Positions 2,253-23,225 of a stretch of DNA of 23,771 nt are shown here, piece after piece (positions within the stretch are counted from its first letter, which is position 1; each line of letters starts with the position of its first letter). Position numbers and translations under genes: made by a program. The DNA lies in the IMG/VR virus record IMGVR_UViG_3300036800_000531, positions 1 through 23,771 of that record; one strand, 5' to 3'. Under the pieces are notes generated by a model that did no database searches, was not told the origin of the DNA, and was given only the letters and a program-made list of their open reading frames with translations. The DNA comes from a virus.

Positions 2253-2289
2253 AGCCGAACCGAAACTTCGCGCCGCCACATAACGCGGC
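2253..2289 (+). promoter_or_regulatory. Repeated leader element, copy A (box plus hairpin before start codon)
   Basis: Box AGCCGAACCGAAAC (2253-2266), 5-nt spacer, then stem GCCGC (2272-2276) / GCGGC (2285-2289) with loop CACATAAC, then one base and the ATG at 2291. The same layout recurs at 2547, 16406 and 21484. No Shine-Dalgarno sequence is visible before this ATG. The element could act as a structured mRNA leader that helps or controls initiation, or the box could be part of a promoter; the sequence alone does not decide. Confidence 0.7.
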
Positions 2290-2290
2290 C

Positions 2291-2548
2291 ATGGACGAAC
2301 AAGCCTGGATCGCTCTTGGGACGCTCGCCGCCTTCGTGGCCGTCCAGGGCTTCACATTCGCGTTCCTGTTGGGGGGCCTGTTCGCCAGGCTCAAACAGGT
2401 CGAGGTCAGTCAGGCCGACCATGGCAGCGTAGCGGTCGGCATCGCTACGCTCACGACCGAGATGGGCGCGGTGAAGTCGGGCCTCGCCGAGCTTCGCAAT
2501 ACGCTCTTGGAGCCGGCCAGGGCCCGCCGCCGCGAAGGCGTGGGATAG
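2291..2548 (+). CDS. Small membrane protein with C-terminal coiled coil
   Basis: This 85-residue protein has one strong hydrophobic segment (about residues 6-32, WIALGTLAAFVAVQGFTFAF and onward) followed by a polar helix with heptad-like spacing (KQVEVSQ, then TTEMGAVKSGLAELRNTLLE). The tail is basic (ARARRREG). The layout of one anchor plus a coiled coil is shared by phage i-spanins, small holin-like proteins and tail-chaperone-like proteins, so no function can be assigned. It sits between a tailspike-like gene and the minor head protein gene, away from the lysis cassette. The ATG follows leader element A after one base and has no visible ribosome binding site. Its stop codon TAG overlaps the first bases of leader element B. 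Real gene likely, role unknown. Confidence 0.65.
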   Translation: MDEQAWIALGTLAAFVAVQGFTFAFLLGGLFARLKQVEVSQADHGSVAVGIATLTTEMGAVKSGLAELRNTLLEPARARRREGVG

Positions 2549-2581
2549 CCGGGCCGAAACCTTCCCGCGCCACCACTCGCG
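2547..2581 (+). promoter_or_regulatory. Repeated leader element, copy B
   Basis: Box AGCCGGGCCGAAAC (2547-2560) begins inside the TAG stop (2546-2548) of the preceding gene. After 5 nt comes stem CGCG (2566-2569) / CGCG (2578-2581) with loop CCACCACT, then two bases and the GTG start at 2584. No Shine-Dalgarno sequence precedes the GTG. Copies A and B also share bases between box and stem (CTTCGCGCC versus CTTCCCGCGCC), so these two are the closest pair. Confidence 0.7.
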
Positions 2582-2583
2582 AC

Positions 2584-3387
2584 GTGGCCAAGCCCCTCAC
2601 CATCAAGCCGGTCCATCCGAACGCCGGCATCGCTGCGGCGTATCGGCGCGCGATGGTCGCGGAAGTCGGCGCCATGCACGAGGCGTTCGTCGACTGGCTC
2701 GCCGGCGCCTGGGCGAACCATCCCCCCGAGATGGCGCAGGACCGCAGCCCGGCCGAGGCCCTGCAGGCGGCTCTGACCGACCTGGGCGGCCTGTGGCTCC
2801 GCAGGTTCGACGATCTCGCCCTTCGCCTCGCCCGTCACTTCACGCTCGCCGCGTCTAGGCGCTCGGACGCCGCGCTCATGGCCGCGCTGAAGAGGGCAGG
2901 GTTCGCCGTTCGCTTTTCGATCAGCCGCAAGGTCGAGGACGTCGTCGCCGCCTCGGTCGCGGAGAACGTCACGCTCATCAAGTCGATCGCGAGCCAGTAC
3001 CTCACGCAGGTCGAGGGCGCGGTCATGCGCTCGGTCCAGACCGGCCGCGACCTGGGCGCGCTGACCGACGAGCTGACGCACTTCTACGGCGTCTCCAAGC
3101 GCCGCGCGGCCTTCATCGCGAAGGACCAGAACAACAAGGCGACGGCCTCTGTCGTCCGCGCCCGGCAGGTCGAGGTCGGGGTAACGCAGGCGATCTGGCT
3201 GCACTCGGCCGGCGGCAAGCATCCGCGCCCGACGCACGTTCGCGCCGGCAAGGATCGCACCGTCTACGACGTCAAGGACGGGTGGCTCGATCCGGCCCTG
3301 AACCGCCGCATCTGGCCGGGCACCGAGATCAACTGTCGCTGCGTGAGCAGGTCTATCGTTCCGGGACTCGAGCGGAGGGCGGCCTGA
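2584..3387 (+). CDS. Minor head protein, Mu gpF / SPP1 gp7-like head morphogenesis family
   Basis: The 267-residue protein has a helical N-terminal two thirds and a C-terminal region (about 200-258) matching the phage head morphogenesis (Mu F-like) domain: AIWLHSAGGKHPRPTHVRAG, then WLDPALNRRIWPGTEINCRC. The W-H, RPTH, W/IWPG and NCRC signatures are characteristic. Proteins of this family sit near the portal vertex, are often encoded right after the portal, and are thought to enter the capsid with the DNA or help head assembly. Here the portal must lie further left, separated by a tailspike-like gene and a membrane-protein gene. The start is GTG, preceded by leader element B rather than an ordinary ribosome binding site. 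The next gene overlaps the stop as TGATG. Confidence 0.85.
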   Translation: MAKPLTIKPVHPNAGIAAAYRRAMVAEVGAMHEAFVDWLAGAWANHPPEMAQDRSPAEALQAALTDLGGLWLRRFDDLALRLARHFTLAASRRSDAALMAALKRAGFAVRFSISRKVEDVVAASVAENVTLIKSIASQYLTQVEGAVMRSVQTGRDLGALTDELTHFYGVSKRRAAFIAKDQNNKATASVVRARQVEVGVTQAIWLHSAGGKHPRPTHVRAGKDRTVYDVKDGWLDPALNRRIWPGTEINCRCVSRSIVPGLERRAA

Positions 3388-3557
3388 TGGCCCCGCAACA
3401 CCGCTTCGTGCCGCTGTCCGACCAGACGACGTCGGGGAACGCCTGGCGGCCGCAGAGCGCGCGCTGGGAAGAGGATCACGTCGAGGCGTGTGAGCGCCAT
3501 CGGGTGAAGTACCTGGAGGCGCTTCTGCGCCAGACCCGCCTGGGCATCCCTCAATGA
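3387..3557 (+). CDS. Small conserved-looking phage ORF (56 aa)
   Basis: This short polar protein (MAPQHRFVPLSDQ to RQTRLGIPQ) starts with an ATG sharing its A with the TGA stop of the minor head gene. A good ribosome binding site (GGAGG, 3374-3378) lies 8 nt upstream. The longer reading frame from 3282 lies inside the minor head gene and is rejected as the start. The 3' end overlaps the next ATG as ATGA, so it is sandwiched by translational coupling, which supports it being real. It has no membrane segment or motif I recognise. Two Trp, several Arg/Glu and a helical C-terminal half are all that can be said. Confidence 0.6.
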   Translation: MAPQHRFVPLSDQTTSGNAWRPQSARWEEDHVEACERHRVKYLEALLRQTRLGIPQ

Positions 3558-4777
3558 GCGACGCCACCCTCACGCTCGCGATCGACAGCACGAATCGCTT
3601 CGTCGACGTCGATGGGCGGATGCACGTCCGCGTCTGCAATTTGAGCAAGGCGAACGTGTGCGGCTACCTGGGCCGCGAAATCCCCGGCTGGCAGGAGCTG
3701 GGGCTCGAAGCCGAGCGCGTCTACAAACTCTACCGCGACCCCGTCGAGCTGGCGAAGGCCGCGCCGACCGTCAACAATATTCAGCTGCTCGACGTCCACA
3801 TCGGCGTGAGCGCGGACGATCCGAAGAAGGAACGCGTCGCCGGCTCGACCGGGACCGATGCGGCGTTCGTCGCGCCCTACCTGCAGAATTCCCTCGTCAT
3901 TTGGGATGCCGGAGCCATCGCGGGCGTCGAGACGAACCAGAAGCGCGAGCTCTCCTGCAGCTACCGCTACCGGCCCGACATGACGCCCGGAAGCACAAGC
4001 CAAAGCGAAACCTTCGACGGCGTAATGAGAGACATCGCTTTCAACCACGTCGCACTCGTGGAGCAGGGGCGCGCTGGACACGACGTCCTCGTCGCTGACG
4101 CAAAACTGGAGACCTCGCCTATGTCGAAGGCCGCGCAAGCTCTGCAGGACGCCCTCAAGGGCAAGCTCGCGAGCGACGCTCAGATCGACTTCCCCGCGCT
4201 GGCGAAGCTCGCCGCGGATGCGGAGAAGGAAGACCGCGAGGCCAAGGACAAGAAGGCGAAGGACGACGAGCGCGAGGAAGAGCGCAAGGAAGCCGAGCAG
4301 ACCGAGGCCAAGGACAAGGCCGCGCGCGACAAGGCGGCCAAGGACAAGAAGGCCAAGGACGACGAGGCCGAGCAGATCGCCAACGAGGACCGCAAGGCCA
4401 AGGACAAGAAGGCGAAGGACGAGGAAGAGGCCAAGGAGCGCGACAAGGAAGAGGCCGAGGACCGGGCGAAGGACGCCGCCTCGAAGGCCGTCACCGCCGC
4501 CCTGGCCGCCCGCGATGCGCTCGACGCCGCGAAGGTCGAGGTCCGCCCGTATGTGGGCGAGGTCACGACCGCCTGCGACAGCGCCGAGGCCGTCTACAAG
4601 TTCGCATTCGACGCCATGGGCGTCGACGTCAAAGGCGTCCACGCCTCGGCTTTCGGCGCGATCCTGCGCGCCCATCCCAAGCCAGGTGGCCGCCCGGCGC
4701 CCCGTCTCGCGGCGGACGGAGCCAACGACGACTTCAACACGCGGTTCCCGGGCGCTCAGCGCTTCGGCCGCGCCTAA
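3554..4777 (+). CDS. DUF2213 capsid maturation protease fused to charged scaffold
   Basis: Residues 1-185 match the DUF2213 family of phage head proteins, thought to be prohead proteases: the segment ELSCSYRYRPDMTPG (Ser134 in a likely nucleophile position), a His at 82 in LDVHIGVSADDP, and the closing motif MRDIAFNHVALVEQGRAGHD are family hallmarks. Residues 190-310 form a very charged, helix-forming region with repeated AKDKKAKDDE units, as expected of a scaffolding protein that fills the procapsid and is then degraded. The C-terminal 90 residues look like a compact capsid-binding end. Protease-scaffold fusions in one frame are known in phages such as lambda (C/Nu3). It directly precedes the cement and major capsid genes. 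The active-site assignment is inferred. Confidence 0.8.
   Translation: MSDATLTLAIDSTNRFVDVDGRMHVRVCNLSKANVCGYLGREIPGWQELGLEAERVYKLYRDPVELAKAAPTVNNIQLLDVHIGVSADDPKKERVAGSTGTDAAFVAPYLQNSLVIWDAGAIAGVETNQKRELSCSYRYRPDMTPGSTSQSETFDGVMRDIAFNHVALVEQGRAGHDVLVADAKLETSPMSKAAQALQDALKGKLASDAQIDFPALAKLAADAEKEDREAKDKKAKDDEREEERKEAEQTEAKDKAARDKAAKDKKAKDDEAEQIANEDRKAKDKKAKDEEEAKERDKEEAEDRAKDAASKAVTAALAARDALDAAKVEVRPYVGEVTTACDSAEAVYKFAFDAMGVDVKGVHASAFGAILRAHPKPGGRPAPRLAADGANDDFNTRFPGAQRFGRA
4121..4777 (+). CDS. Possible nested scaffold protein from an internal start
   Basis: An in-frame ATG at 4121 (Met190 of the long product; MSKAAQALQDALKG follows) is preceded by GGAG (4108-4111) with a 9-nt spacer, a proper ribosome binding site. 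It falls exactly at the junction between the DUF2213 protease part and the charged scaffold part. Translation from here would make a free 218-residue scaffold in excess over the protease-scaffold fusion, as Nu3 is made inside lambda C. This is an inference from position and ribosome binding site only; the ATG could simply be an internal Met in a single polypeptide. Confidence 0.5.
   Translation: MSKAAQALQDALKGKLASDAQIDFPALAKLAADAEKEDREAKDKKAKDDEREEERKEAEQTEAKDKAARDKAAKDKKAKDDEAEQIANEDRKAKDKKAKDEEEAKERDKEEAEDRAKDAASKAVTAALAARDALDAAKVEVRPYVGEVTTACDSAEAVYKFAFDAMGVDVKGVHASAFGAILRAHPKPGGRPAPRLAADGANDDFNTRFPGAQRFGRA
4238..4427 (+). repeat. Degenerate AKDKKAKDDE-coding repeats in scaffold
   Basis: Three close copies of a roughly 30-nt unit coding for AKDKKAKD(D/E)E lie at about 4238-4270, 4334-4366 and 4395-4427, with related Lys/Glu/Asp heptad-like sequence between. 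They are in-frame, protein-level repeats of a charged helix, likely a coiled coil. They are not DNA direct repeats of the CRISPR kind. Confidence 0.7.
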
Positions 4778-4793
4778 GAGGATCTGACGCACA

Positions 4794-5759
4794 ATGGCCG
4801 TCGGCGATTTCCCCTCCCAGGTTCAGACCTATCAGGCTCCGGCCGTCGAGGGCGACTTTGCCTCGGCCAACCCGCGCGCCTCCGTGCTCGCCGGGGCCGA
4901 GGCCCTGGTCGCCGGGCCCAATGGCGTCACTGTCGGGCGCTTCGCCTGGGTGGATACGACCGGCCAACTCGCGAGCAACAACTCGCCCTACGGCGGCGCG
5001 CCTGACGGCTTCGTCCATCGTGAACAGCAGGCGCTGATCACCACCTTCCTGGCCTCGTCCGGCCTCCTCGTGCCGCAGGGCTTCATGGTCACGCTGCACC
5101 AGGAAGGCGACTTCTGGGTCAAGCACACCGGGACCATCGTCGCGACCAAGGGCATGAAGGCGTACGCCAACCTCGCCACCGGCGCGATTGCCTTCGCCGC
5201 GACCGGCGCACCGCCCTCGTCCGGCTCCGGCTCCGCCTCGTCCATCGCGGCTGGCGCGGGTTCGGTCACCGCCTCCATCGCCATCGTGGCCCCGAACAAC
5301 GGACCCGATTACGGCGTCATGACCGTGACTGCGGTCGGCTCCGGCTCCCTGCCGGTCGGCGCGGTCCTTTCCGGGACTGGCGTGCAGACCGGCACGGCGA
5401 TCACCGCGCAGCTCACCGGCTCGGCCGGCGGCATCGGGACCTATCAGGTGTCGATCCCGCAGACGACCGCGTCGACCACCGTCACGGCGGCCTTCGGTAC
5501 GCTGACTGTCGGCGGCACCGTGGCGGGCGTGTTTGAGGTCGGCGGGGCCCTTTCGGGCACCAACGTCGTGGCCGGAACCACGGTCACCGCGCTGGGCACG
5601 GGAACTGGCGGCGCCGGGACCTACATCGTCAACAACAACACCGTCGTCTCCTCGACGGCCATTTCGTCCACGACCTTCGTCGAGACGAAATACATCTGCG
5701 CCTCCGCTCAGGTTCAGCCGAATACGCTGGGCCGCATGTCCTCCTGGCCTCTGGGATAA
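4794..5759 (+). CDS. Capsid cement/decoration protein (gp24-like) with inserted beta modules
   Basis: The first 140 residues (for example [44 protein letters not shown]) resemble the phage structural cement protein family encoded just before DUF2184-type capsid proteins. The end ([20 protein letters not shown]) resembles the usual C-terminal strand of that family. Between them, residues about 150-295 hold two copies of a Gly/Thr/Ser module ([28 protein letters not shown]) that also occurs in other virion proteins here, apparently inserted into a loop. The protein should bind the outside of the capsid lattice, so the insert may be displayed on the head. AGAGGA-type ribosome binding site at 4777-4782. 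Family call good; display is inferred. Confidence 0.75.
5306..5675 (+). repeat. Two copies of the shared virion beta module in the cement gene
   Basis: Copy 1 (about 5306-5491) codes for [20 protein letters not shown], then [13 protein letters not shown] and [19 protein letters not shown]. Copy 2 (about 5497-5675) is more diverged ([40 protein letters not shown]). The shared pattern is: strand, VG-x-x-(L/I)-(S/T)GTGV, GT-x-(I/V)TA, GG-(I/A)GTY-x-V, then a Thr/Ser-rich strand. Confidence 0.65.
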
Positions 5760-5765
5760 TCACAG

Positions 5766-6884
5766 ATGAACTTTGCGCAATCCGTGCAGACTTGGGCGAA
5801 GGACCGCAGCCGCCTGGAGCGTGAATTCGGGATCGTGATCCCGGAAGCGCGCGCCTACCTGCCCGCCGAACTGAAGCGGGATTGGTCGGCAGGCGCGGCC
5901 ATGGACGCCATCATGGCGATGGACGCTCAGCCCACGCTGACGACCGCAGCCAACGCCGGCATTCCGGCGATGCTCACCACGTTCATCGATCCGGACGTCC
6001 TGCGCATTCCCTTCGCCCCGCTGAAGATGTCCATGATCCTCGGCAGCGAGCGCAAGAAGGGCGACTGGACCGTCCTGACCGCGATGTTCCCGATGGTCGA
6101 GACGACCGGCGACACCACCAGCTACGGCGACTTCAACAACGCCGGCAGCTCGGGCGCGAACATCAACTGGCCGCAGCGTCAGAGCTACCACGCTCAGACG
6201 ATCATCCAGTACGGCGAGCGCGAAATCGCCATGGCCGCCACGGCGGGCGTGAACCTGGCCGTCGAGAAGCAGACCGGCGCGGTCAATGCGCTCAACCAAC
6301 TGCAGAACAAGACCTACGCCTTCGGCGTGCGCGGCCTGCAGTGCTACGGCCTGCTCAACGATCCGAACCTGACCGCGGCGATCCAGCCGGGCCCGAAGGC
6401 CTACAACGCCCAGGCGCATGGCCCCTGGATCACGTCGGGCGTCGTCACCGCGACCCCGAACGAGGTCTACAACGACGTCGTCAGCCTGTTCATCCAACTG
6501 GTGACGCAGACCGACGGCATCATCGAGCTCGATCGCGAGAACAAGCTCGTGCTGGCCCTGGCGCCCGACGTGGCCGTCGCCTTCACGGCGGCGAACAGCT
6601 TCAACGTGCAGGTCCGCGACCTGCTGGAGAAGTCGTTCCCGAACCTGCGCATCGAGACGGCGGTGCAGTACGACAGCGGCGTTTCCGGCCTCTCCGGCAA
6701 CCTCGCCCAGTTGATCTGCGAGGACGTGCTCGGCCAGGAGACCGGCTACTGCGCCTTCACCGAGAAGCTGCGGATGCACCCGCTCGTCGTGGGCATGTCG
6801 AACTGGATGCAGAAGCTGTCGCAGGGCACCTGGGGCGCGGTCATCCGCCAGCCCTTCGCCATCGCGCAGATGCTGGGCCTGTAA
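5766..6884 (+). CDS. Major capsid protein (DUF2184-type major capsid family)
   Basis: This 372-residue protein sits directly after the cement gene and has features of the DUF2184 major capsid family: an N-terminal arm (AKDRSRLEREFGIVIPEARA), then IPAMLTTFIDPDVLRIPFAP, GDWTVLTAMFPMVETTGDTT and FGVRGLQCYGLLNDPNL. The fold should be HK97-like and form the icosahedral shell. Length is normal for the family. The gene keeps the standard order scaffold/protease, cement, capsid. The ATG lies 6 nt after the cement stop, with only a weak ribosome binding site, so coupling to the upstream gene is likely. A 43-nt gap follows, with no leader element and no hairpin. Confidence 0.85.
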   Translation: MNFAQSVQTWAKDRSRLEREFGIVIPEARAYLPAELKRDWSAGAAMDAIMAMDAQPTLTTAANAGIPAMLTTFIDPDVLRIPFAPLKMSMILGSERKKGDWTVLTAMFPMVETTGDTTSYGDFNNAGSSGANINWPQRQSYHAQTIIQYGEREIAMAATAGVNLAVEKQTGAVNALNQLQNKTYAFGVRGLQCYGLLNDPNLTAAIQPGPKAYNAQAHGPWITSGVVTATPNEVYNDVVSLFIQLVTQTDGIIELDRENKLVLALAPDVAVAFTAANSFNVQVRDLLEKSFPNLRIETAVQYDSGVSGLSGNLAQLICEDVLGQETGYCAFTEKLRMHPLVVGMSNWMQKLSQGTWGAVIRQPFAIAQMLGL

Positions 6885-6927
6885 GCGCGCCAGAGAGCAA
6901 CCCACAACCCAAGAGGCTTGATCCATC

Positions 6928-7419
6928 GTGTCTGAGGCCAGAGACCCGACCGCGCCCGTCGTGAAGACCGGCGATACCGTCACCATCGCGCTCAAGCATC
7001 CGTCGGGCCTTCGGCTCGACCTGATGGGAGAGATCGAGATCCGCAAGACGCCGTCGGGCGACGAAGCCCGCGCGCCGCTACTGAAGAGCTACTTCGTGCG
7101 CGGCTCGTCCGACGAGCGCCGGCTCGACAGTGCCGACGACAAGGGCCGCCCGCTCGACCATGCCGGCGTCCCCCAAGTGCGCGGCGGCTACGGCCTGACC
7201 TTCGGCATTCCGAAGGACTTCTGGGAAGCGTGGCTGAAGCAGAACGCGGACTATCCGCTCGTCCGCAACGGTCTGATCTTCGCCGCGGGCGCGAACCGCG
7301 CTCCGGGCATGGCGGTGGAGAAGAACGAGCTGAAGGGCTCGTTCGAGCCGCTCGATCCGAAGGGTACGGCCATCGGCGGCGTGAAGTTCAAGCCGGCGTA
7401 CGACGACCAAGCCGCGTGA
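6928..7419 (+). CDS. Hypothetical head-region protein (163 aa)
   Basis: The start is GTG at 6928 with AGAGG (6912-6916) 11 nt upstream. The protein is soluble and mixed alpha/beta with no signal peptide or membrane segment. The N-terminal part has strand-like stretches (VVKTGDTVTIALKHPSGLRL) and the middle has an aromatic segment (IPKDFWEAWLKQNADYPLV). I do not recognise a family with confidence. Its place between the capsid gene and the DUF4054 connector is where many contractile-tailed phages encode a small protein of unknown function, so a minor head or head-assembly role is a guess from context. Confidence 0.65.
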   Translation: MSEARDPTAPVVKTGDTVTIALKHPSGLRLDLMGEIEIRKTPSGDEARAPLLKSYFVRGSSDERRLDSADDKGRPLDHAGVPQVRGGYGLTFGIPKDFWEAWLKQNADYPLVRNGLIFAAGANRAPGMAVEKNELKGSFEPLDPKGTAIGGVKFKPAYDDQAA

Positions 7420-7422
7420 TGA

Positions 7423-7842
7423 ATGGGCGCGGTCGCCACGTTCAATTTCACAGCGTGGCAGGCCCGCTACCCTGAGTTCACCTCGGTAAGCGAGCTGGCG
7501 GCTGACGACTATTTCGCCGAGGCCTGCGTCTATCACGACAACACCGGCGCCGGGCCCGTCGTGGACGGCGCGACGCAGCTGAGGCTCCTGAACATGCTGA
7601 CCGCGCATATCGCGGCCATCTATTCGGGCGTGGGCACGCTGGGACCGAGCGGCGTCGTCGGGCGGATCGCGGCGGCGACGCAGGGGTCGGTGAACGTCAC
7701 CGCCGAGTTCGACGCGACCAAGGGTGCGCAGTGGTATCTGCAGACGCCCTACGGCGCGTCCTACTGGGGCGCTACCGCCATCTATCGCACCGCCCGCTAC
7801 CTCCCTGGCTCGGACCAGCGCCGCCGCTACGGGTGGCGCTGA
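7423..7842 (+). CDS. Head-tail connector / adaptor protein (DUF4054 family)
   Basis: The 139-residue protein begins FNFTAWQARYPEFTSVSELA and contains LRLLNMLTAHIAAIYSGVG followed by GVVGRIAAATQGSVNVTAEF and the C-terminal AQWYLQTPYGASYWGAT, all typical of DUF4054 phage proteins, which are helical adaptors placed under the portal (gp6/gp15-like connectors). Length is normal. It starts 3 nt after the preceding stop and overlaps the next gene as TGATG, placing it in a translationally coupled head-completion block (7423-9464). Confidence 0.85.
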   Translation: MGAVATFNFTAWQARYPEFTSVSELAADDYFAEACVYHDNTGAGPVVDGATQLRLLNMLTAHIAAIYSGVGTLGPSGVVGRIAAATQGSVNVTAEFDATKGAQWYLQTPYGASYWGATAIYRTARYLPGSDQRRRYGWR

Positions 7843-8282
7843 TGGCTACGTTCCTCGGGGGCGAGAAGCTGCAGGCGTATCTGAAGGACCTCGCCGCCAA
7901 GGTCCGCAACCCCGGCACGCTGGAGGTCGGCTTTCTGGAGGGCGCAACCTACCCGGACGGCACGAGCGTCGCGATGGTGGCGGCCGTTCAGGAGTTCGGC
8001 TCGCGAGACATCCCGCCGCGCCCCTTCTTTCGCAACATGATCCGCAAGGAGAGCGGGCACTGGGGCACGGACGTCGGCCAAGTGCTGAAGGCCAACGACA
8101 TGGACGCCACGCGCGCCCTCGAACTGATGGGCGAGGAGATCAAGGGCGAGCTGCGCGAGTCCATCATCGAGACGAACGAGCCGCCCAACGCGCCCGCCAC
8201 GATCAAGGCCAAGGGCGCGTCCAAGCCGCTCGTCGACACCGGCCACATGCTCAACAGCATTGGCGACAGGGTGACGAAGTGA
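7842..8282 (+). CDS. Neck/tail-completion protein, HK97 gp10-like
   Basis: The ATG at 7842 overlaps the upstream TGA and gives a 146-residue protein; the longer frame from 7731 lies within the DUF4054 gene and is rejected. The segment LEVGFLEGATYPDG, then VAMVAAVQEFGSRDIPPRPFFRNMI, matches the common phage protein pattern VGF...YP.G..VA.VA..nEFG....PpRPFfr, seen in gp10-like head-tail joining or tail-completion proteins. A C-terminal LVDTGHMLNSIGDRV is also typical of this family. It probably acts at the neck between connector and tail. The end overlaps the next gene by 4 nt. Confidence 0.75.
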   Translation: MATFLGGEKLQAYLKDLAAKVRNPGTLEVGFLEGATYPDGTSVAMVAAVQEFGSRDIPPRPFFRNMIRKESGHWGTDVGQVLKANDMDATRALELMGEEIKGELRESIIETNEPPNAPATIKAKGASKPLVDTGHMLNSIGDRVTK

Positions 8283-8578
8283 GGCTCCTCGATCTCGATC
8301 CGCGCTGGTTCGTTCTTGAAGATGGCGGCCCGAAGGTGGGCCTCACCTTCGATTGCCCGCATTGCCGCGAGACTCGCCTGGGCGTCGCTTTTCATCATGC
8401 GATGCACGCCGCCGATGAGGACGGCTACATTCTGGCCAGGCACGGGTCGACCGACGCGGGACACATCTGGACGCTGAGCGGCCCTGACGATTTTGCTTCC
8501 CTAAGTCTCTCGCCCTCGGTGGACGCCAGCAGCACCGGTCACTGGCACGGCTTCGTCACGAACGGAGAGGTGACGTGA
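8279..8578 (+). CDS. DUF6527-like small zinc-binding-type protein
   Basis: The GTG at 8279 overlaps the upstream stop (GTGA) and gives 99 residues. Cys26-Pro-His-Cys29 looks like half of a metal site, and the C-terminal LSPSVDASSTGHWHGFVTNG is a close fit to the conserved end of the DUF6527 family (LSPS plus HWHGF(I/V)TNG). Such proteins are common in phage neck regions; from memory, the same family appears as BubE in bacterial ubiquitin-like (Bub) operons, where peptidase activity has been proposed. Whether the phage version is an enzyme is unknown. The candidate functional residues are Ser78/Ser80, His88 and His90. It ends overlapping the next start (GTGA), so it is fully coupled to the virion genes. 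Confidence 0.6.
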   Translation: MRLLDLDPRWFVLEDGGPKVGLTFDCPHCRETRLGVAFHHAMHAADEDGYILARHGSTDAGHIWTLSGPDDFASLSLSPSVDASSTGHWHGFVTNGEVT

Positions 8579-8949
8579 ACCTCAACGTCGCCGCCGGCGC
8601 AGCGGTCGCCGCGGTGAACCCGGCGATCCTCGGGACCGTGAAGCTCTCGACGGGCAACACGACGAACCCCGACTACAGCCGCTCGCCGACCTACACGACC
8701 GTCGCCAACGTCCCGATGCAGGTCCAGCCGGTCAGCCCCGGCCTGATGGCCCAGCTCGCCAGCCTGAACATCCAGGGCGTGATGAAGCGCGTCTACGTGA
8801 ACATGGACGTCGAGGGCATCGAGCGCGTGCTGAGCAAGGGCGGCGACCTCCTGATCTTCTCCGGCCAGACGTGGAAGGTCGTCCACCCGCTCGAGGAATG
8901 GTCGACCGGCTGGTCGTGCGTGATCGTCTCGCTGCAGGACGGCGCATGA
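8575..8949 (+). CDS. Head closure/completion protein
   Basis: This 124-residue protein (GTG start overlapping the upstream TGA) has the pattern NPDYSRSPTYTTVANVPMQV, then KRVYVNMDVEGIERVLSKGG and TWKVVHPLEEWSTGWSCVIV. That small beta-rich layout, ending in a strand with a Trp-containing W-s-xGW motif, is typical of head-closure or stopper proteins encoded between the connector and the tail terminator of contractile-tailed phages. No catalytic motif is present. The order connector, gp10-like, closure, terminator, sheath strongly supports the assignment. It overlaps the next gene by 4 nt (ATGA). Confidence 0.6.
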   Translation: MNLNVAAGAAVAAVNPAILGTVKLSTGNTTNPDYSRSPTYTTVANVPMQVQPVSPGLMAQLASLNIQGVMKRVYVNMDVEGIERVLSKGGDLLIFSGQTWKVVHPLEEWSTGWSCVIVSLQDGA

Positions 8950-11179: not shown

Positions 11180-11183
11180 GCCG

Positions 11184-14460: not shown

Positions 14461-14868
14461 ATGCAGATCGTACCCCTTCAGCCTGTCCCGTCGCAGACGC
14501 TGGCGATCAGTCTAGACGCACAGGCGTGTTCCATAGCGGTGCGCCAGACGGCGACGGGCATGTATCTGTCGCTGGCCGTGGCGGGCTCGACGGTGCTGGA
14601 CGGCGTTCTGTGCCTCAACGCCACGCGCATCGTGCGGGACGCCTATCTGGGCTTCACCGGCGACCTCGCCTTCTTCGACACTGAAGGCTCATCGGATCCG
14701 CAATACGTCGGCCTGGGCCTCCGCTGGATACTCGTCTTCCTCGCGCCGGGCGAAGCGTTGATCGAGGTCGACCTGCTGCTGCCGGCGTTCGCCTCGTGGC
14801 CGGACGTCATCGGCGTCTCGCCCGGTGTCGAGCTGGGCGTGGGCGACGGAACGGTGGTGGGCCTGTGA
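14461..14868 (+). CDS. Baseplate plug protein, Pam3 gp18-like
   Basis: The 135-residue protein begins MQIVPLQPVPSQTLAISLDA and contains VLDGVLCLNATRIVRDAYLG and FTGDLAFFDTEGSSDPQYVG, then LGLRWILVFLAPGE. These are the hallmarks of the phage baseplate plug family named after cyanophage Pam3 gp18. In that minimal baseplate the protein contributes to the ring or plug under the tube. It begins directly after the preceding TAG and overlaps the hub start as GTGA. Length is normal for the family (about 100-135 residues). Confidence 0.82.
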   Translation: MQIVPLQPVPSQTLAISLDAQACSIAVRQTATGMYLSLAVAGSTVLDGVLCLNATRIVRDAYLGFTGDLAFFDTEGSSDPQYVGLGLRWILVFLAPGEALIEVDLLLPAFASWPDVIGVSPGVELGVGDGTVVGL

Positions 14869-15758
14869 CCTACGCCCTGCGCGCCATCGACCTGAGCTTT
14901 CGCCTGGGCGACGGCGGCACGACGTTCGACGGCGGCAACAACACCGTGACCGTCTCGGGCCTGCGCGTCTCCGCCACGGTCAGCAAGGCCGGCGCGGTCA
15001 GCATGAACAACGCGACCATTCGCGTTTGGGGGCTTCAGCCCTCGGTCGCAAACCGGCTCTCGACTCTGGGCAAGCTGATCACGGCAGGGCGGAACAACAC
15101 CGTCACCATGTCGGCCGGCGCGGTCGACGGGGCCAAGAGCGTGATCTTCATCGGCACGATCCAGCAAGCCTATCTCGACTTTCAGTCCGCGCCCGACGTG
15201 CCGCTCGTGATCACCGCCTTCACCGGCCTGCTCGACGCCCTGCGCCCGCTTGCGCCAACGACCTATCAGGGCGCGGTCGATGCGGCAGACGTCATCGCGG
15301 GCCTGGCCAAACAGATGGGCTATGGCTTCGAAAACGGCGGCGTCTCCGGCGTCATCCTTTCCAACCCCTACCTGCCAGGAACCGGCCGCGATCAGGCGTA
15401 CGGGGCGGCCAAGGCGGCGGGGATCAACATCACCATCGACGATCAGCCCTCGGGGACGCCGACTATCGCCATCTGGCCGCAGGACGGCGCGCGCGATGGC
15501 GAAGCGCCGCTAATCTCGAAAGACACCGGCATGGTCGGCTCGCCCGCCTGGACCGAAAACGGGATCATCATCAAGACGCAGTTCAATCCGCAGATCGTGT
15601 TCGGCGCGAGGGTGGAGGTGAAGAGCAGTCAGGTTCCGAACGCCAACGCCACCTGGCAAATCTTCGGGATCACGCACGAGATCGAGGCGCAGATGCCCAA
15701 CGGCAAGTGGTTCAGCCTTCTGCAGGCAACCGTCCTGGGGCACGCGGCCATTGCCTGA
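14865..15758 (+). CDS. Baseplate hub protein
   Basis: The start is GTG at 14865, overlapping the plug stop; an upstream start at 14796 is inside the plug gene. The 297-residue protein begins TYALRAIDLSFRLGDGGTTF and has GLRVSATVSKAGAVSMNNAT, IRVWGLQPSVANRLSTL and later NPQIVFGARVEVKSSQVPNA with IFGITHEIEAQMPNGKWFS, a pattern of tandem barrel-like domains known from phage hub proteins (T4 gp27 / Mu gp44 type) that hold the spike trimer. Position between plug and gp138-type spike supports it. The C-terminus overlaps the spike start by 8 nt. Confidence 0.75.
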   Translation: MTYALRAIDLSFRLGDGGTTFDGGNNTVTVSGLRVSATVSKAGAVSMNNATIRVWGLQPSVANRLSTLGKLITAGRNNTVTMSAGAVDGAKSVIFIGTIQQAYLDFQSAPDVPLVITAFTGLLDALRPLAPTTYQGAVDAADVIAGLAKQMGYGFENGGVSGVILSNPYLPGTGRDQAYGAAKAAGINITIDDQPSGTPTIAIWPQDGARDGEAPLISKDTGMVGSPAWTENGIIIKTQFNPQIVFGARVEVKSSQVPNANATWQIFGITHEIEAQMPNGKWFSLLQATVLGHAAIA

Positions 15759-16407
15759 CACTTACCAGGGCGCTCAACGCGCATCGGACAGCGCGGGCGG
15801 CTTCAACGCTCAGCAGTTCATGATGCGCCAGTTGATGGCGAAGCTGTGGACCGCGACTCTCGTCAAGGTCGTGAAGGTCTATCCGGCCGCTGTCGGCGCG
15901 CTCGACGGGGCGCAGGGTCTCGTAGACATCCAGCCGCTCGTTCAGCAGGTCGACGGCCAGGGGAAGAACCCGACGCCGCACGGCACGATCTACGGCGTCC
16001 CCTACTTCCGCCTCCAGGGCGGAACGTCGGCCATCGTGATCGATCCGGCCGCCGACGACCTGGGCATCGCCATCTTCGCCAGCCGCGACATCTCCAAGGT
16101 GGTGACGACGCAGGCCGAAGCCGTGCCGGGGAGCTTCCGCCAGTTCGACCCCGCCGATGCCCTCTACCTTGGAGGCTTCCTCAACGGGATGCCGGTCCGC
16201 TACATCCAGTTCACGTCGAGCGGCATGATCGTGCTCGACCCGACGCAGATCAGCTTTCAAGCCCCGACCGTGCATGTTCAAGGCAATCTGACCGTATCGG
16301 GAACCGTCGTCGCCCAAGGGGATGTGACGGGGCAGGGGACGTCGCTGCACACGCACCACCACAGCGGGGTCACGACCGGCTCGGGCAACACCGGGCCCCC
16401 GACCTAG
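15751..16407 (+). CDS. Membrane-puncturing spike protein (phi92 gp138 / P2 gpV type)
   Basis: The best start is TTG at 15751, overlapping the hub end (MPDTYQGAQRASDSAGGFNA follows with fMet). The 218-residue protein has an OB-fold-like N-terminal half (VGALDGAQGLVDIQPLVQQV, TIYGVPYFRLQGGTSAIVID) and a beta-helical C-terminal needle (PTVHVQGNLTVSGTVVAQGD). It ends with LHTHHHSGVTTGSGNTGPP; the HxH cluster coordinates a metal at the spike tip in gpV and gp138 trimers. It is the piercing tip of the contractile tail. The TAG stop overlaps leader element C, which precedes an inserted beta-helix gene. Confidence 0.85.
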   Translation: MPDTYQGAQRASDSAGGFNAQQFMMRQLMAKLWTATLVKVVKVYPAAVGALDGAQGLVDIQPLVQQVDGQGKNPTPHGTIYGVPYFRLQGGTSAIVIDPAADDLGIAIFASRDISKVVTTQAEAVPGSFRQFDPADALYLGGFLNGMPVRYIQFTSSGMIVLDPTQISFQAPTVHVQGNLTVSGTVVAQGDVTGQGTSLHTHHHSGVTTGSGNTGPPT

Positions 16408-16441
16408 CCGAGCCGAAACCGGCAGGGAGCAAGCGTCTCCC
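16406..16441 (+). promoter_or_regulatory. Repeated leader element, copy C
   Basis: Box AGCCGAGCCGAAAC (16406-16419) begins inside the TAG stop (16405-16407) of the spike gene. After 5 nt comes stem GGGAG (16425-16429) / CTCCC (16437-16441) with a 7-nt loop CAAGCGT, directly followed by the ATG at 16442. The stem's 5' arm could double as a distant Shine-Dalgarno sequence (12 nt before the ATG) that the hairpin would hide. The stem sequence differs from the other three copies but is fully paired. Confidence 0.7.
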
Positions 16442-18259
16442 ATGCGCCTCGCCCTTCTCCCGGCCCTCGCCGCCATCCTCTTCACCTCGGCCGCCGCCGC
16501 TCAGGCCGTCGTTCCGTCCGGTTCGCTGCCCGCTCGAGGAACGCCGGCATCGACCGATACCTACATCACCGTTCCCATCGGAGGGACGGCAAAGCAGGGC
16601 GCTCTCCCCGACCTGGCGTCCTATGTCCGGATCAGCGTCAAAAGCTACGGCGCGAAGTGCGACGGGACGACCGACGATACGAGCGCCATCAACTCGGCAT
16701 TGACCGCGGCGGCCGCTGTGGGCGGCGAGGTGCTGGTCGATGGGGGCTGCAAGGTCGGAACCAGTGGCGCGGGCGTCACCATTCCTCCGGGCGCGACGCT
16801 GGGCGGGGCTTCGTGGCAGGGCGCAAACCCGGCGGTCGGCTCGCAGTTGATCTGCAACAACCAGGCCGCGTACGTCTGTTTGACGGTCTCCGGCTACAGC
16901 GGATCGAATGGCCTCTTGGCCAATGGCGTCCACGACCTTTCGATCATCGGCACAGGCGGAACGCCGGTCAGCGGCTTCATCGGGCTGGAATACCTGGCCG
17001 GGTACGAAGTGTGGGGCCGGGAGATCAAGGTCGCCAACGCCGACACCTGCATCCTGTGGAAGGCGGGTGTCCCGACGAGCGGCGGTATCAGCTTCGACGG
17101 CTCACGGATCAACGCCGCTCAGTGCAAGAGCCACTACCTCGTCTTCGACGGCTGGCCTGAAGCCCGCTTCAACAGCGTGAGACTGGGCGACAATGGCTCC
17201 GGCGACTATGCGGCCACCGACGCCGTCCTCTTCAAGAACACCGCCTGCACGACTTCGGGATGCGGCCCCAACGGGATCGTCTTCACCGCACTCCAGATCA
17301 ATCCGCAGAACAGCCTCGGGTGCGCCTTCCGCTGGTCAAGCTACGGCGGCGGGAGCGGCGTGGGCGCAGAGTTCAAGATCGCTCACTCGCACGTCGAGTG
17401 GCACACCTCCGGCGGCACGGCGGTGTTCTGTTCGGACAGCACCTGGACCACACTTTCGAACCTGGTGGTCGACTCCACCACCTTCTCGCTCGGAAGCGCC
17501 AGCGTCCCCCTGTTCGCGTTCAACAGCGCCACCGCGCTCGTTCAGGATTACTTCCGGGGCAACAACTTCGGCGGCTGCACCGGGATCACGCTGGCCCCGT
17601 CCCCGGCCTCGGGCGCGGCCTTCTCCGATGTCTGGTTTACCGACAACTTCGGGTGCGTCGCAGCGTCATTCACGTCGAACGGGACCGGGACGAACAAGCT
17701 CTATTCGCTCCACAACAACTGGAACGCCCTGACCGTCGCCGGCGCCTGGGATGGCGCGCTGAAGAGCGACGACTATTTCTCGACCATCACCGACTCCGCC
17801 ACCGGCAACGTCTACATGACCGAGCCGCAGCAGACCTGGACCCCCAAGCTCGCCCTGTGCGCCGCCGCCACCTTCGGGTGCGGTACGAGCGCCGGGACGC
17901 AGACCGTGTGGGGGCGCTATCAGCGCACGCCTTCGGGCGGCTTCATGGCCTCGTTTCAGGTCACCATGACCGGGACTGTGGGCGGGTCTGGCTTCGCGGA
18001 GATCGAGGGCCTGCCCTTCACCTGCGCGTCGTCTCAGCAGAGCGCGGCCAGCGGGGGACCGGCCACCTACCAGGGCGGCATGGTCAATATGTACGGGCCG
18101 CTCATCTTCCAGATGTCGACGGTGTCGGGCGCGCCGCTGATGCTGTTCGAGCCGGGCGCGGCCAGCGGATCGCAGACCAATCTCGTTCAGATCCCCTACG
18201 CCAATCTCTCGTCGACGAGCACGATGGCGGGGACGGTCTCCTGCGCCAAGGCGTCGTAG
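16442..18259 (+). CDS. Secreted pectate-lyase-like beta-helix protein (tailspike candidate)
   Basis: The 605-residue protein starts with a clear Sec signal peptide (MRLALLPALAAILFTSAAAA, cleavage near AQA/VV). Residues about 60-130 are the typical pectate_lyase_3 / GH28-related opening (ISVKSYGAKCDGTTDDTSAI, then NSALTAAAAVGGEVLVDGG and VTIPPGATLGG), followed by beta-helix rungs to about 440 and a C-terminal jelly-roll-like region with many Cys (LALCAAATFGCGTSAGTQT). This is the layout of phage tailspike depolymerases, but an export signal is odd for a particle assembled in the cytoplasm. The gene splits the usual spike-wedge gene order and is preceded by leader element C. It may be a tailspike or an exported capsule-modifying protein. 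Confidence 0.72.
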   Translation: MRLALLPALAAILFTSAAAAQAVVPSGSLPARGTPASTDTYITVPIGGTAKQGALPDLASYVRISVKSYGAKCDGTTDDTSAINSALTAAAAVGGEVLVDGGCKVGTSGAGVTIPPGATLGGASWQGANPAVGSQLICNNQAAYVCLTVSGYSGSNGLLANGVHDLSIIGTGGTPVSGFIGLEYLAGYEVWGREIKVANADTCILWKAGVPTSGGISFDGSRINAAQCKSHYLVFDGWPEARFNSVRLGDNGSGDYAATDAVLFKNTACTTSGCGPNGIVFTALQINPQNSLGCAFRWSSYGGGSGVGAEFKIAHSHVEWHTSGGTAVFCSDSTWTTLSNLVVDSTTFSLGSASVPLFAFNSATALVQDYFRGNNFGGCTGITLAPSPASGAAFSDVWFTDNFGCVAASFTSNGTGTNKLYSLHNNWNALTVAGAWDGALKSDDYFSTITDSATGNVYMTEPQQTWTPKLALCAAATFGCGTSAGTQTVWGRYQRTPSGGFMASFQVTMTGTVGGSGFAEIEGLPFTCASSQQSAASGGPATYQGGMVNMYGPLIFQMSTVSGAPLMLFEPGAASGSQTNLVQIPYANLSSTSTMAGTVSCAKAS

Positions 18260-18619
18260 GTGACGATCCCGCTCGATACGCTCCTGTTGGACCGGACCAG
18301 CTGGGACCTCGTCGTCGACGCCTCGGGCAACATCGCCATGGCTGCGCCGCCCTATGCCGTGGCGCAGGACGTCGCGTCCGCCATCAAGGCGCGCAAGGGC
18401 GAGGTCTGGTACGACACGACCAAAGGCGTCCCGTACGATCAGATTTGGGGCAAGCTACCGCCGCTCCAGGCGGTCAAGGCGGCGTTCGTCAAGGCGGCGT
18501 TCACCGTCCCCGGCGTCGTCACCGCCAAATGCTTCCTCTCCGGTCTCGCCGGTCGCAAGCTCGTGGGCCAGGTGCAGGTGACGGACAATACGGGCGCCGC
18601 CCAGACGGTGGCGTTCTGA
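18260..18619 (+). CDS. Baseplate wedge protein, gp25/W family
   Basis: The GTG directly follows the TAG stop of the beta-helix gene and gives 119 residues. The pattern [40 protein letters not shown] and [20 protein letters not shown] matches the T4 gp25 / P2 gpW wedge family, whose conserved Glu-Val-Trp-Tyr-(D/N) segment is present. It locks the sheath to the baseplate wedge and helps trigger contraction. In related phages it directly follows the spike gene, so the beta-helix gene before it looks like an insertion. The gpJ gene follows after one base. Confidence 0.85.
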
Positions 18620-18620
18620 C

Positions 18621-20021
18621 ATGACCGCCGTTCCGTCCCCCACGTTCGGCCCCACCGGATTTGCGATCCCCGCCGAGAGCGCAGTTCTGGCCGGCGTCCA
18701 GGCCGACATGAACGCGGCGTTCGGTGGCAACCTCAACCCGGACCTGACGACGCCGCAGGGCCAGCTCGCATCGTCCATGACGGCCGCCATCGCGGATAAG
18801 AACGATCAGTTCCTCGCTCTGACCAACGGCGTCGATCCTGCCTTCGCCACCGGGCGGATGCAGGACGCCATCGCGCGGATCTACTTCCTGACGCGCAACG
18901 CGGCCCAGCCGACGACGGTCCTCGCAACGTGCGTTGGCCTCGTTGGGACGGTGATCCCGACCGGGGCGCAGGCCAAGGCGAGCGACGGGAACATCTATCT
19001 GGCCACGACCGGCGGCACGATCCCGGCCGGCGGCTCGCTGACGCTCTCGTTCCAGTGTTCGGTGACCGGGCCGATCGCCTGCCAGACCGGAGCTCTGGCG
19101 ACGATCTACCAGACCATTCCCGGCTGGGACACGATCAGCAATCCGGTCCCCGGAGTCGTGGGCAACGACGTCGAGACGCCCGCCGCTTTCGAGGCGCGGC
19201 GCAAGCGGTCCGTGGCGCTCAACTCGGTCAGTCCGCCGGACGCCATCCTCGCCGCGGTGCTTTCCGTCCCCAACGTCATCGACGCCTATGTGGTGGACAA
19301 CCCGACCAACGCGCCGGTCACCATCGGCGGCGTCACGCTCGCGGCGCACTCGGTCTACGTCGCGGCCGTGGGCGGTTCGTCGATGGCCGTCGCTCAGGCG
19401 CTCTGGTCCAAGAAGCCGCCCGGCTGCAACTACAACGGCAACACCTCGGTCACGGTCTATGACCCGAACCCGCTCTATCAGACGCCGCCATCCTACGCGG
19501 TGACCTACGAAATCCCGCCGAACCTCTCGATCTTCTTCAACGTCACGATGAGCGCGGCGGGTGCGCCGGCCAATGCCCTGGCGCTCGTGCAGGCCGCGCT
19601 GCAGTACGCCTTCGCGGGCGAGGACGGGGGACCGCGCGCGCGGATCGGCTCGACGATCTTCGCCCTGCGCTTCTACTCCGGCATCGCCGCCGCATGGCCA
19701 GGCGCTCAGGTCGTTTCCATCGCCATTGGATCGGCCAACGCGCCGGGCGCGGTCATCACCGGCTCGATCAGCGCCACGACGCTCACCGTCTCGGCTACGT
19801 CGTCGGGCGCGGTCGCCATCGGCCAGTTCATCACCGGGACGGGCGTGACGGACGGGACCTATGTCGTCTCCGGCTCCGGATCGACCTGGACCGTCTCACA
19901 GAGCCAGACGGCCGCCAGCGAGACGATGACGCTGATCGCCGCCAGCCTCGCGGACCTGACCGTGCAGATCAATCAGGAGCCGGTCCTGTCCTCGGCCGAC
20001 GTTCAGCTCACTCTGGTCTAG
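18621..20021 (+). CDS. Baseplate wedge protein, gpJ / gp47 family, with inserted module
   Basis: The 466-residue protein has the family opening [20 protein letters not shown] and [20 protein letters not shown], then [40 protein letters not shown] and [20 protein letters not shown], all characteristic of baseplate J/gp47 (Mu gp47-like) proteins that form the wedge around the hub. Residues about 380-443 ([39 protein letters not shown]) are the module shared with cement and sheath, placed just before the usual last strands ([20 protein letters not shown]). It shows no frame disruption. The insertion into a normally short loop is unusual for an internal wedge protein. Confidence 0.85.
19757..19950 (+). 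repeat. Shared virion beta module copy in the gpJ gene
   Basis: It codes for [38 protein letters not shown] and [20 protein letters not shown]. Compared with the sheath copy it keeps TVSA-x-SSG-x-(L/V)A-x-GQ-x-(L/I)TGTGV and the final strand but lacks part of the centre. It sits between the segments [13 protein letters not shown] and [10 protein letters not shown]. Confidence 0.6.
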
Positions 20022-20027
20022 CGCGCG

Positions 20028-21476
20028 ATGGACAACATCGAGCGCACCGTCATCCAGCAGTACGGCGCATCGACCGCGCTGCTCTCGCTGATCGACAACT
20101 TCAACGAGGCGGTCGATCCGGGCGAGGACATCGACGCCTGGTACGCGGACGTCTGGAGCCTCGCCACGGCGCAGGGCTACGGGCTCGATCTGTGGGGCCG
20201 TATCGTCGATGTTCCCCGCATCCTCACCGTCTCGGGCTACGGCAACTATTCGCTCAGCGACCCGGCGTATCTGACGCTCATTTACGCGAAGGCGCTGTCG
20301 AACATTTCGGACGGCTCGATCCGCACGTTCAATCAGATCCTCATGACCCTCTTCCCGGGCGTGGGCGACTGCTACGTCGTCGACAACCTCGACATGACGA
20401 TGAGCGTGATCCTGCCCTTCACGCCCACGGCCGTGCAGTACGCGATGATCGCGCTGCCGGGGCTGCTCCCGCGCCCGGCCGGCGTCCTCCTGAACCTTCC
20501 CGGCTCCGGCTCCGGCTCGCTGGCCATCGCCATCGCCGCGGGCGAGACCGAGAGCGGCACGGTCACCTCGTGGACGTTCGACACGAACACCGCGACCGTC
20601 ACTGGCGGCTCCGGCTCCTACGCCTTCACATGGTCGCTGGCCTCGGCCTCGGGCGGCGCGTTCACGCTCACCGGCGGCGGCACGGCCAGCGCGACGGTCG
20701 CAGTGAGCGGCGTCGGCTCGGGCGTCACCGCGACCGTTCACCTCTCCTGCCAGGTGCTCGACACGATCACCGGCACGACCGCGACCAGCTCGTCGGTGAC
20801 CTACTCGTTCGACAACACCACGGCGATCCCGTTCACCATCGCCATCGGCTCGGGCGCGACGGCCTCGGCCGCCTCGACCTCGCACACGTTCGGCGGCAAC
20901 ACGGCCACCGTCACCGGCGGCGTCGGACCCTTCCTGATCTCCTGGACGATCACGCCCAACGACTCGAGCGGGACCTGGAGTCTGGCGAACGCCTCCACCG
21001 CGACGACAACGCCATCGGTCAGCGGCGTTGCCGCCGGCGCCACCTCCACCGCCTCGCTCGTCTGCATGGTGACCGACACGACGACCGGCCTCAGCCATTC
21101 CAGCGCGGCCGTCACCTACTCGTTCAACGACTCCGCCCTCTCGTTGGTGACGAGCGATGGCGTCTACAGCTACGTCGTCGTCGCGCCCTCGACGGGCTAC
21201 GGCTTCCCGACCCTGACCGTCGTCGCGTTCGGCGGGTCCGGCTCCTACACCTACTCGTTTACGCTGGAGACCTATCCCGGCAACGCGCCGTTCTGGCGGA
21301 TCACGCCGTCCGGGGCGACGTGCGGGGTGGCGGCCAGCGGCGTCGGCTCCGGTCACTCGGCCATCATGTACGTCAGCGCCACGGTGACGGACACCATGAC
21401 CGGCCAGACGGCGACGGCGACGGCGGTGCTCTACCAGTTCGGCAACAACTCCGGCGGCGGCAACCCCTCCCTCTAG
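20028..21476 (+). CDS. DUF2612 baseplate protein with three Ig-like repeats
   Basis: Residues 1-155 match DUF2612 (phage tail protein I-like): MDNIERTVIQQYGASTALLS, LATAQGYGLDLWGRIVDVPR, NISDGSIRTFNQILMTLFPG and ALPGLLPRPAGVLLNL. These proteins link the wedge to fibres. The remaining 325 residues are three tandem units of about 100 residues, each with TVTGG-x-G-x-(Y/F) near the start, VSGV-x-(S/A)G in the middle and VTDT-x-TG then VTYSF at the end (third copy more diverged). They look like Ig- or PKD-type beta sandwiches for surface adhesion. No separate tail fibre or chaperone gene follows, so this C-terminal part may itself be the adhesin. No good ribosome binding site is visible upstream of the ATG. 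Confidence 0.78.
   Translation: MDNIERTVIQQYGASTALLSLIDNFNEAVDPGEDIDAWYADVWSLATAQGYGLDLWGRIVDVPRILTVSGYGNYSLSDPAYLTLIYAKALSNISDGSIRTFNQILMTLFPGVGDCYVVDNLDMTMSVILPFTPTAVQYAMIALPGLLPRPAGVLLNLPGSGSGSLAIAIAAGETESGTVTSWTFDTNTATVTGGSGSYAFTWSLASASGGAFTLTGGGTASATVAVSGVGSGVTATVHLSCQVLDTITGTTATSSSVTYSFDNTTAIPFTIAIGSGATASAASTSHTFGGNTATVTGGVGPFLISWTITPNDSSGTWSLANASTATTTPSVSGVAAGATSTASLVCMVTDTTTGLSHSSAAVTYSFNDSALSLVTSDGVYSYVVVAPSTGYGFPTLTVVAFGGSGSYTYSFTLETYPGNAPFWRITPSGATCGVAASGVGSGHSAIMYVSATVTDTMTGQTATATAVLYQFGNNSGGGNPSL
20508..21476 (+). repeat. Three tandem Ig-like domain repeats in the DUF2612 gene
   Basis: Repeat 1 is about 20508-20819, repeat 2 about 20820-21135 and repeat 3 about 21136-21476. Shared landmarks are TATVTGG (copies 1 and 2) or TVVAFGGSGSY (copy 3), then VSGVGSG / VSGVAAG / ASGVGSG, then CQVLDTITG / CMVTDTTTG / ATVTDTMTG, then SVTYSFDN / AVTYSFND / AVLYQFGN. 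The repeats are clear at protein level and diverged at DNA level. Confidence 0.7.
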
Positions 21477-21483
21477 GCGACGA

Positions 21484-21519
21484 AGCCGGAGCGAAACCCG
21501 AGGCGCGCAACCCTGCGCC
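21484..21519 (+). promoter_or_regulatory. Repeated leader element, copy D
   Basis: Box AGCCGGAGCGAAAC (21484-21497) starts 7 nt after the TAG stop (21474-21476) of the DUF2612 gene. After 4 nt comes stem GGCGC (21502-21506) / GCGCC (21515-21519) with loop GCAACCCT, directly followed by the GTG at 21520. It opens the lysis cassette. The gap 21477-21519 holds nothing else visible. Confidence 0.7.
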
Positions 21520-22549: not shown

Positions 22550-22551
22550 CG

Positions 22552-22857: not shown

Positions 22858-22859
22858 AC

Positions 22860-23213: not shown

Positions 23214-23225
23214 GGAGCCGCCGAC

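Follow-up and report, generated by a model that had tools for sequence, protein, structure and literature searches.

A 14-nucleotide box repeated ahead of four genes, with potential hairpins at their start codons, in an uncultured contractile-tailed phage

Results

The window analysed here, which is the entire 23,771-base virus record IMGVR_UViG_3300036800_000531 (67% GC), encodes structural genes that together form the module of a contractile-tailed phage, with a Mu F-like head protein, a head maturation protease, a major capsid protein and a tail sheath, and it also encodes a GH108 endolysin. The genome is incomplete, as the first open reading frame (ORF) of the window has no start. Ahead of four genes stands the element that concerns us: a 14-nucleotide (nt) box, constant at 11 of its 14 positions across the four copies, followed by a potential hairpin that ends at or just before the start codon (Table 1). 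The recurrence of this box is genuine and no product of chance, and we tentatively read the four copies as part of a lineage-specific control element associated with gene starts, which would act on the mRNA at translation initiation.

Table 1. Boxes, potential hairpins and the genes behind them. The pairing probability is that of the start-proximal stem, given over three choices of flank.
Feature	Position	Strand	Description	Relation to start codon	Pairing probability
Box A	2253-2266	+	AGCCGAACCGAAAC; preceded by T	38 nt ahead of ATG 2291	
Hairpin A	2272-2289	+	5 bp, loop 8	ends 1 nt ahead of ATG	0.98-0.99
Gene A	2291-2548	+	85-residue protein with a hydrophobic N-terminal stretch; codon-position GC like that of other genes		
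Box B	2547-2560	+	AGCCGGGCCGAAAC	37 nt ahead of GTG 2584	
Hairpin B	2566-2581	+	4 bp, loop 8	ends 2 nt ahead of start	0.00-0.15
Gene B	2584-3387	+	Mu F-like head morphogenesis protein (PF04233, phrog_324)		
Box C	16406-16419	+	AGCCGAGCCGAAAC	36 nt ahead of ATG 16442	
Hairpin C	16425-16441	+	5 bp, loop 7	abuts start codon	0.31-0.99
Gene C	16442-18259	+	tail-spike-like protein; one segment resembles pectate lyase, and the N-terminus a signal peptide		
Box D	21484-21497	+	AGCCGGAGCGAAAC	36 nt ahead of GTG 21520	
Hairpin D	21502-21519	+	5 bp, loop 8	abuts start codon	0.63-0.99
Gene D	21520-22056	+	endolysin, glycosyl hydrolase family 108 (PF05838)		

Place and spacing of the boxes

An earlier sequence-only reading had described the four boxes, their identity at 11 of 14 positions and their distance of 36-38 nt to the start codon, and all of this was reconfirmed, as were the positions themselves. 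All four copies lie on the coding strand and between genes, and 22-24 nt separate the end of the box from the start codon. Their relation to the preceding gene varies: box A reads TAG with the T before it, yet no identified gene stops there; the first two bases of box B are the AG of the TAG stop of gene A; box C runs over the TAG stop of the gene that precedes it (15751-16407); and box D begins 7 nt past the stop of the gene before it (20028-21476). The similarity among the four sites largely ends at the box edges, with a mean identity of 0.32 upstream of the box and 0.30 past the start, compared to 0.28 (standard deviation 0.08) for random 40-mers. Over the 22 nt that follow the box the mean is 0.36, but it reaches 0.55 both for A with B and for C with D. 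A fifth match, with one mismatch, lies at 3998, within the protease gene.

The boxed starts also stand apart in how they are joined to their neighbours. Of the 26 called genes, among which two starts (8871 and 14796) are probably not true starts, 16 overlap the preceding gene or sit no more than 6 nt from it, while none of the four boxed starts overlaps the upstream gene and the gaps before them measure 94, 35, 34 and 43 nt (A to D). A computed gap of at least 30 nt precedes nine of the 26; on our reading of the ORFs, four of these nine (3554, 8575, 12200 and 23226) are artefacts of missed genes. The remaining five comprise the four boxed genes and a gene at 6928 with a Shine-Dalgarno-like GAGG. 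Since four of these five carry the box, the pattern suggests a signal for genes unable to inherit translation from the gene before them.

Recurrence beyond chance

Because the box pattern had been fitted to its own sites, we used a blind statistic, in which genes were called by codon usage and the 14-mers lying 20-60 nt ahead of their starts were compared, counting the genes that share one with two mismatches or fewer and at the same distance to the start. The window scores 4, and its top word is the box. Among 139 relatives, some of which may be near-duplicates and from which the upstream-repeat statistics left out one locus (L018), 82 score 2, 56 score 1 and a single one (L013) scores 4, owing to a different and clearly genuine repeated leader that is unrelated to the box. 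The gene calling on which this statistic depends lists most of the expected genes. To this extent the sequence-only reading is supported, as the box recurs ahead of gene starts beyond what chance would give.

It is very improbable, in our view, that the repeat is a chance resemblance or an over-reading of GC-rich sequence. Exact matches to the degenerate box are rare, as only three occur in 18 records (about 44 Mb), where the same pattern read backwards has 14; the expectation per window is about 0.002 (0.008 for the control) against four seen, for a pattern defined post hoc. Similarly, random window positions reach four in none of 300 draws at two mismatches or fewer and in 6 of 300 at three or fewer, with a start list that contained several wrong coordinates. 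What speaks for chance, besides the post hoc definition and those six draws, is that at two mismatches or fewer the window holds five matches for 1.94 expected, a count attained in 6 of 100 shuffles, so that the loose pattern by itself is unremarkable, and that cruder repeat statistics missed the box or gave larger clusters. With all ORFs and three mismatches or fewer, clusters of up to six appear; with length-greedy genes and 12-mers, 25 of 140 sequences reach four, the window not among them; and in another version with length-greedy genes the window scores below 3. These statistics probably miss the box because spurious long ORFs, at 67% GC, displace real genes.

Potential hairpins at the start codons

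The stems, loops and end points that had been described earlier were found again (Table 1). A start-adjacent stem, taken as a perfect one of at least 4 bp with a loop of 4-9 nt and ending within 2 nt of the start, is present at all four boxed starts and at 2 of the 22 other called starts (p=0.001). When the intervals are base-shuffled, such a stem arises at rates of 0.03-0.16 per site, with a product of 5e-5, in a test whose list of other gene starts included several wrong coordinates. The hairpin is therefore enriched at boxed starts, in keeping with the earlier reading, and unproven as a folded structure.

Folding predictions give a mixed picture. The probability of stem C falls to its lowest value with 30 nt of flank, and in leader B the G residues of the box pair with the spacer in place of the stem. 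Relative to shuffles, the folding z-scores of leaders A to D are -1.1, +0.9, -2.0 and -0.5 for the leader alone, and -1.8, -0.2, +0.4 and -2.1 with about 20-30 nt of flank. In MAFFT alignments of the leaders the four stems do not come into register. The sequence-only reading had taken stems that differ in sequence and stay paired as the mark of a conserved RNA structure, a step that our results do not sustain: there are only four copies, stem B is not predicted to form, and 139 relatives yielded no further copy in which covariation might be seen. Moreover, the leaders of A and B, and those of C and D, are not clearly independent, since each pair is 55% identical after the box.

One could also hold that the box is the whole element, bound by a protein or an RNA, and that the hairpins are incidental pairing in a GC-rich interval of 22-24 nt. 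The unfolded stem B, the dependence of stem C on its context, the mostly ordinary z-scores and the CG-rich composition of the interval are in line with this idea; the excess of start-adjacent stems, both over other gene starts and over shuffled intervals, speaks against it, and we consider it quite improbable.

The leaders differ in what they offer a ribosome. Leaders A and B lack a Shine-Dalgarno (SD) sequence, an observation made earlier and reconfirmed here. The sole SD-like motif of leader C (GGAG) sits inside the 5' arm of the stem, and leader D has a GAGG 16 nt ahead of the start.

Transcription signals

A box at a near-constant distance from the start codon may also be a signal in the DNA, acting as a promoter of a single block or as an activator site, used by a phage factor or polymerase or resembling the -35 element of the extracytoplasmic function (ECF) type, which would give very short or leaderless mRNAs, with the hairpin being incidental or stabilising the mRNA 5' end. 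With 36-38 nt of spacing, transcription beginning at the start codon would place the box at about -37 to -24. In addition, the relative L013 has five promoter cassettes, so that such repeats are present in the group. Against such a signal stands the fact that the sites share no second block on either side of the box. A scan of positions 1900-2700 and 4001-23771 for sigma-70-like promoters (-35 and -10 hexamers spaced by 16-18 nt) found none on the coding strand and a single site on the other strand, at 14060-14088. With neither a shared upstream block nor a coding-strand sigma-70-like promoter, a two-block promoter is unlikely. Single-subunit RNA polymerase (PF00940) matched none of 16 records, the window among them, but the control genomes had no match either, so this negative carries no weight. 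A transcription signal would also leave the start-adjacent hairpin unexplained. We regard it as unlikely overall.

The cassettes of L013 (IMGVR_UViG_3300001605_000004, positions 4165-6715) precede ORFs upstream of its MuF gene and consist of a TTGCTTAATAAGTAAA-like sequence, in most copies with a TATAAT-like -10, and then CGCGCCTCGGGTACTGGGGCTGGAG ahead of ATG; most copies also have a hairpin of the GTCGA..TCGAC type with a variable loop, and none matched Rfam. They are like the boxed leaders of our phage in being repeated, in joining a variable hairpin to a conserved block and in belonging to a related structural module, and unlike them in having a TATAAT-like promoter and an SD sequence (GGAG), with no visible similarity to the box.

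A separate observation on repeats ahead of genes comes from a 112-kb virus contig, L220 (IMGVR_UViG_3300012971_000018), where runs of a 5-nt GGTNN unit (GGTCCGGTTTGGTAAGGT...) precede genes at several places around 11800-19400.

The nut site of phage lambda joins a linear box, boxA, to a short variable hairpin, boxB, which has a characteristic loop, and an N-like protein binds it. The architecture found here is similar, with a conserved linear box, 4-5 nt and a short variable hairpin in the transcribed direction, ahead of the spike and lysis genes among others, so one may think of processive antitermination or of another site that modifies RNA polymerase, nut-like or of the ops/RfaH type. We see only a slight chance of this. 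Nut-type sites usually lie early in the leader and do not abut start codons, which makes the position of the boxed hairpins atypical; their loops measure 7-8 nt, stem B is doubtful, and no boxA-like sequence is obvious (no dedicated search for boxA or N was made, and the early region of the phage falls outside the window).

Genes behind the boxes and their junctions

For gene A, no family and no relative were found. The spike gene C looks like an insert, because the genes that flank it abut in three relatives (L011, L012 and L017). Its product has an N-terminal signal-peptide-like stretch (MRLALLPALAAILFTSAAAAQA), which is unusual for a virion protein. Elsewhere in the structural module, a stretch of about 60 residues (roughly GTGVxxGTxITxQLxGxxGGxGTYxxS) seemingly recurs in the minor head protein (4794-5759), the tail sheath (9464-11179) and the baseplate J-like protein (18621-20021); the three proteins cross-match in relatives, and the minor head protein and the sheath both match phrog_21413.

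Lambdoid phages have boundary sequences at exchanged cassettes, and the box could likewise be a short homology at gene junctions where cassettes, such as the spike gene, gene A or the lysis genes, recombine. The overlap of boxes B and C with the stop of the preceding gene would suit this, as would the absence of the spike gene between the same two genes in the three relatives and the A-B interval, which has the form of a small cassette with two boxes around one gene. We find it improbable nonetheless: 14 nt is little sequence for recombination by homology, the distance to the start hardly varies, the hairpin goes unexplained, and no other phage with the same boundary appeared among the relatives or the IMG/VR matches listed.

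Search for further copies

In the phage collection the capsid protein has 498 matches, every one below 60% identity; Pseudomonas phage Orisa03 and Klebsiella phage RCIP0114 are examples at about 46%. The nearest relative reaches 57-58%. The start-associated box repeat is present in none of the 139 relatives, all at or below 57-58% capsid identity. The expectation that copies would be found upstream of starts in related phages was thus disappointed over this range, and the absence applies to that range of capsid identity, not to the phage's own genus. A younger, lineage-specific element would be compatible with the missing copies, the nearest relative being as distant as it is.

The partial matches in these relatives look like background. 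In 127 capsid-relative loci (2.18 Mb), near-matches with CGAAAC intact number 16 in the forward and 19 in the reverse direction. Across 13 capsid relatives there is one exact box, in L016 at 12671, outside any leader context. In five loci with endolysin relatives and 20 with spike relatives, no box (one mismatch or fewer) lies 30-45 nt ahead of an ORF; the check ahead of ORFs gave four rows, in L010, L012 and L016, with nothing repeated.

Wider searches led to the same result. Two scans of IMG/VR for a box followed by a start at 21-25 nt returned 77 and 52 stretches, with no contig name common to the two lists when compared by eye. When the stretches around the matches were inspected, one of these 129 loci had two boxes and 11 had a stem near the start (six being copies of one site), and none had the repeated leader. 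A third scan, for TAGCCGNGCCGAAAC without a start, returned at least 118 stretches, with a stem near the start at seven loci; none of the matches listed resembles the leader beyond the box. In 385 genomes from the class of G001 (Rhodovarius crocodyli), the Alphaproteobacteria, 12 have one box match and none has two, while the backwards control gave 18 matches. No Rfam family matched at E<=1 among 4227 covariance models. A search limited to open-licence literature, and hence weak evidence for novelty, found no paper on the box sequence or on similar repeated intergenic hairpin elements.

One contig that appears twice among the matches listed, IMGVR_UViG_3300047160_036057 (L368, L390, L433-L436), was rejected as a REP-like repeat, as the box matches on both strands and at both sites is half of a GGCACGGCTTTAGCCGTGCC palindrome. 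Although classed as viral, the contig is perhaps host DNA.

Discussion

The element has so far been seen in one uncultured phage only. Of the roles that the sequence-only reading had offered, namely a translation initiator, a control RNA, a protein-binding site or a promoter box, all are reasonable; its observation is confirmed and its interpretation partly supported. Our preferred reading, held tentatively, is that of a control element acting at translation initiation. If the hairpin folds, it would remove 16-18 nt from the path between box and start codon, and the box would come to lie 6, 7, 5 and 4 nt from the start (A to D), at the usual place of an SD sequence. There it may be read by something other than plain pairing with the anti-SD, for example an RNA-binding protein of the phage or of its host, or a different part of the ribosome, which would recruit or block the 30S subunit. 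By this means the element would allow genes outside the translationally coupled operon, such as the spike insert, the lysis gene and the gene that follows an insertion, to be adjusted jointly in level or in timing.

Several points weigh against this proposal. Stem B is not predicted to form, stem C depends on its context, and by these models the folding energies mostly fail to stand out from shuffles; four copies cannot prove covariation. No relative with the element was found, which leaves its conservation across phages hypothetical. Moreover, the box is not SD-like and hence has no known reader: its duplex with the anti-SD is computed at 0.1 to -5.8 kcal/mol, where a full SD reaches -11.6, and as the box pairs so poorly, we infer that its reader has to be a protein or some other contact with the rRNA. 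One such contact would join the AGCCG half of the box to a CGGCU of the 16S rRNA just upstream of the anti-SD, with -11.5 to -15.9 kcal/mol for the 16S 3' end of a genome with a capsid relative (G007), which may not be the host's. The CGGCU stretch is normally paired in helix 45. Between 17 and 79 of 500 shuffled boxes pair equally well, so the result is not significant alone, and direct pairing with the rRNA at such an unusual site is a possibility. A stricter version of the initiation reading, in which the unpaired box is the recognition site of an SD-independent, two-part signal and the hairpin, free in sequence, a spacer only, strikes us as rather doubtful.

Known systems offer partial parallels. 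In phage T4, a hairpin cuts the distance between SD and AUG from 22 to 5 nt at gene 38, and from 27 to 11 nt at gene 25, as described in a review of T4 (PMC3014915). Like these split ribosome-binding sites, an intervening hairpin could shorten the distance in our phage, from 22-24 to 4-7 nt if folded; unlike the box, the upstream element described there is an SD sequence, and the box recurs at four genes.

The nearest described phenomenon that we found is the SAS repeats of cluster K mycobacteriophages, which are short, asymmetric, almost always of one orientation, typically located 3-7 bp from starts and of unknown function (PMC3203893, PMC12699233). The genes they precede have large gaps before them, and some of the repeats extend over the stop codon of the gene upstream (PMC3203893); at about half of the sites they are joined by inverted repeats, known as ESAS (PMC3203893, PMC12699233). 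The box is similar in being short, asymmetric, of a single orientation, ahead of gapped genes and sometimes over the upstream stop. The earlier remark that no described family has this form therefore stands as regards Rfam and falls short in that SAS/ESAS is similar. Nevertheless, the two differ in many respects. The SAS consensus GGGATAGGAGCCC, with its AGGAG core, has no match in the window at two mismatches or fewer; SAS typically lie at 3-7 bp, while the box is 22-24 nt away and would be at 4-7 nt only if the hairpin folds; and the ESAS inverted repeat is described as 17 bp long and upstream of SAS, while the stems here have 4-5 bp and lie downstream of the box. SAS belong to the non-structural half, at 11-19 per genome, while the box occurs four times, among structural and lysis genes, in a genome that is incomplete. 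Finally, SAS are recognized by conservation at the same genes in relatives, which the box does not show among the 139 distant relatives. As sequence, distance and conservation all fail to agree, the box is not a SAS and only resembles one.

If the element is functional, it would be another repeated start-site signal installed by a phage, unrelated in sequence to SAS/ESAS. Its recognition part and its spacing part would be separable, and hence directly testable. It would also hint that genes dropped into a translationally coupled phage operon take on a shared module for initiation where a Shine-Dalgarno sequence would otherwise stand.

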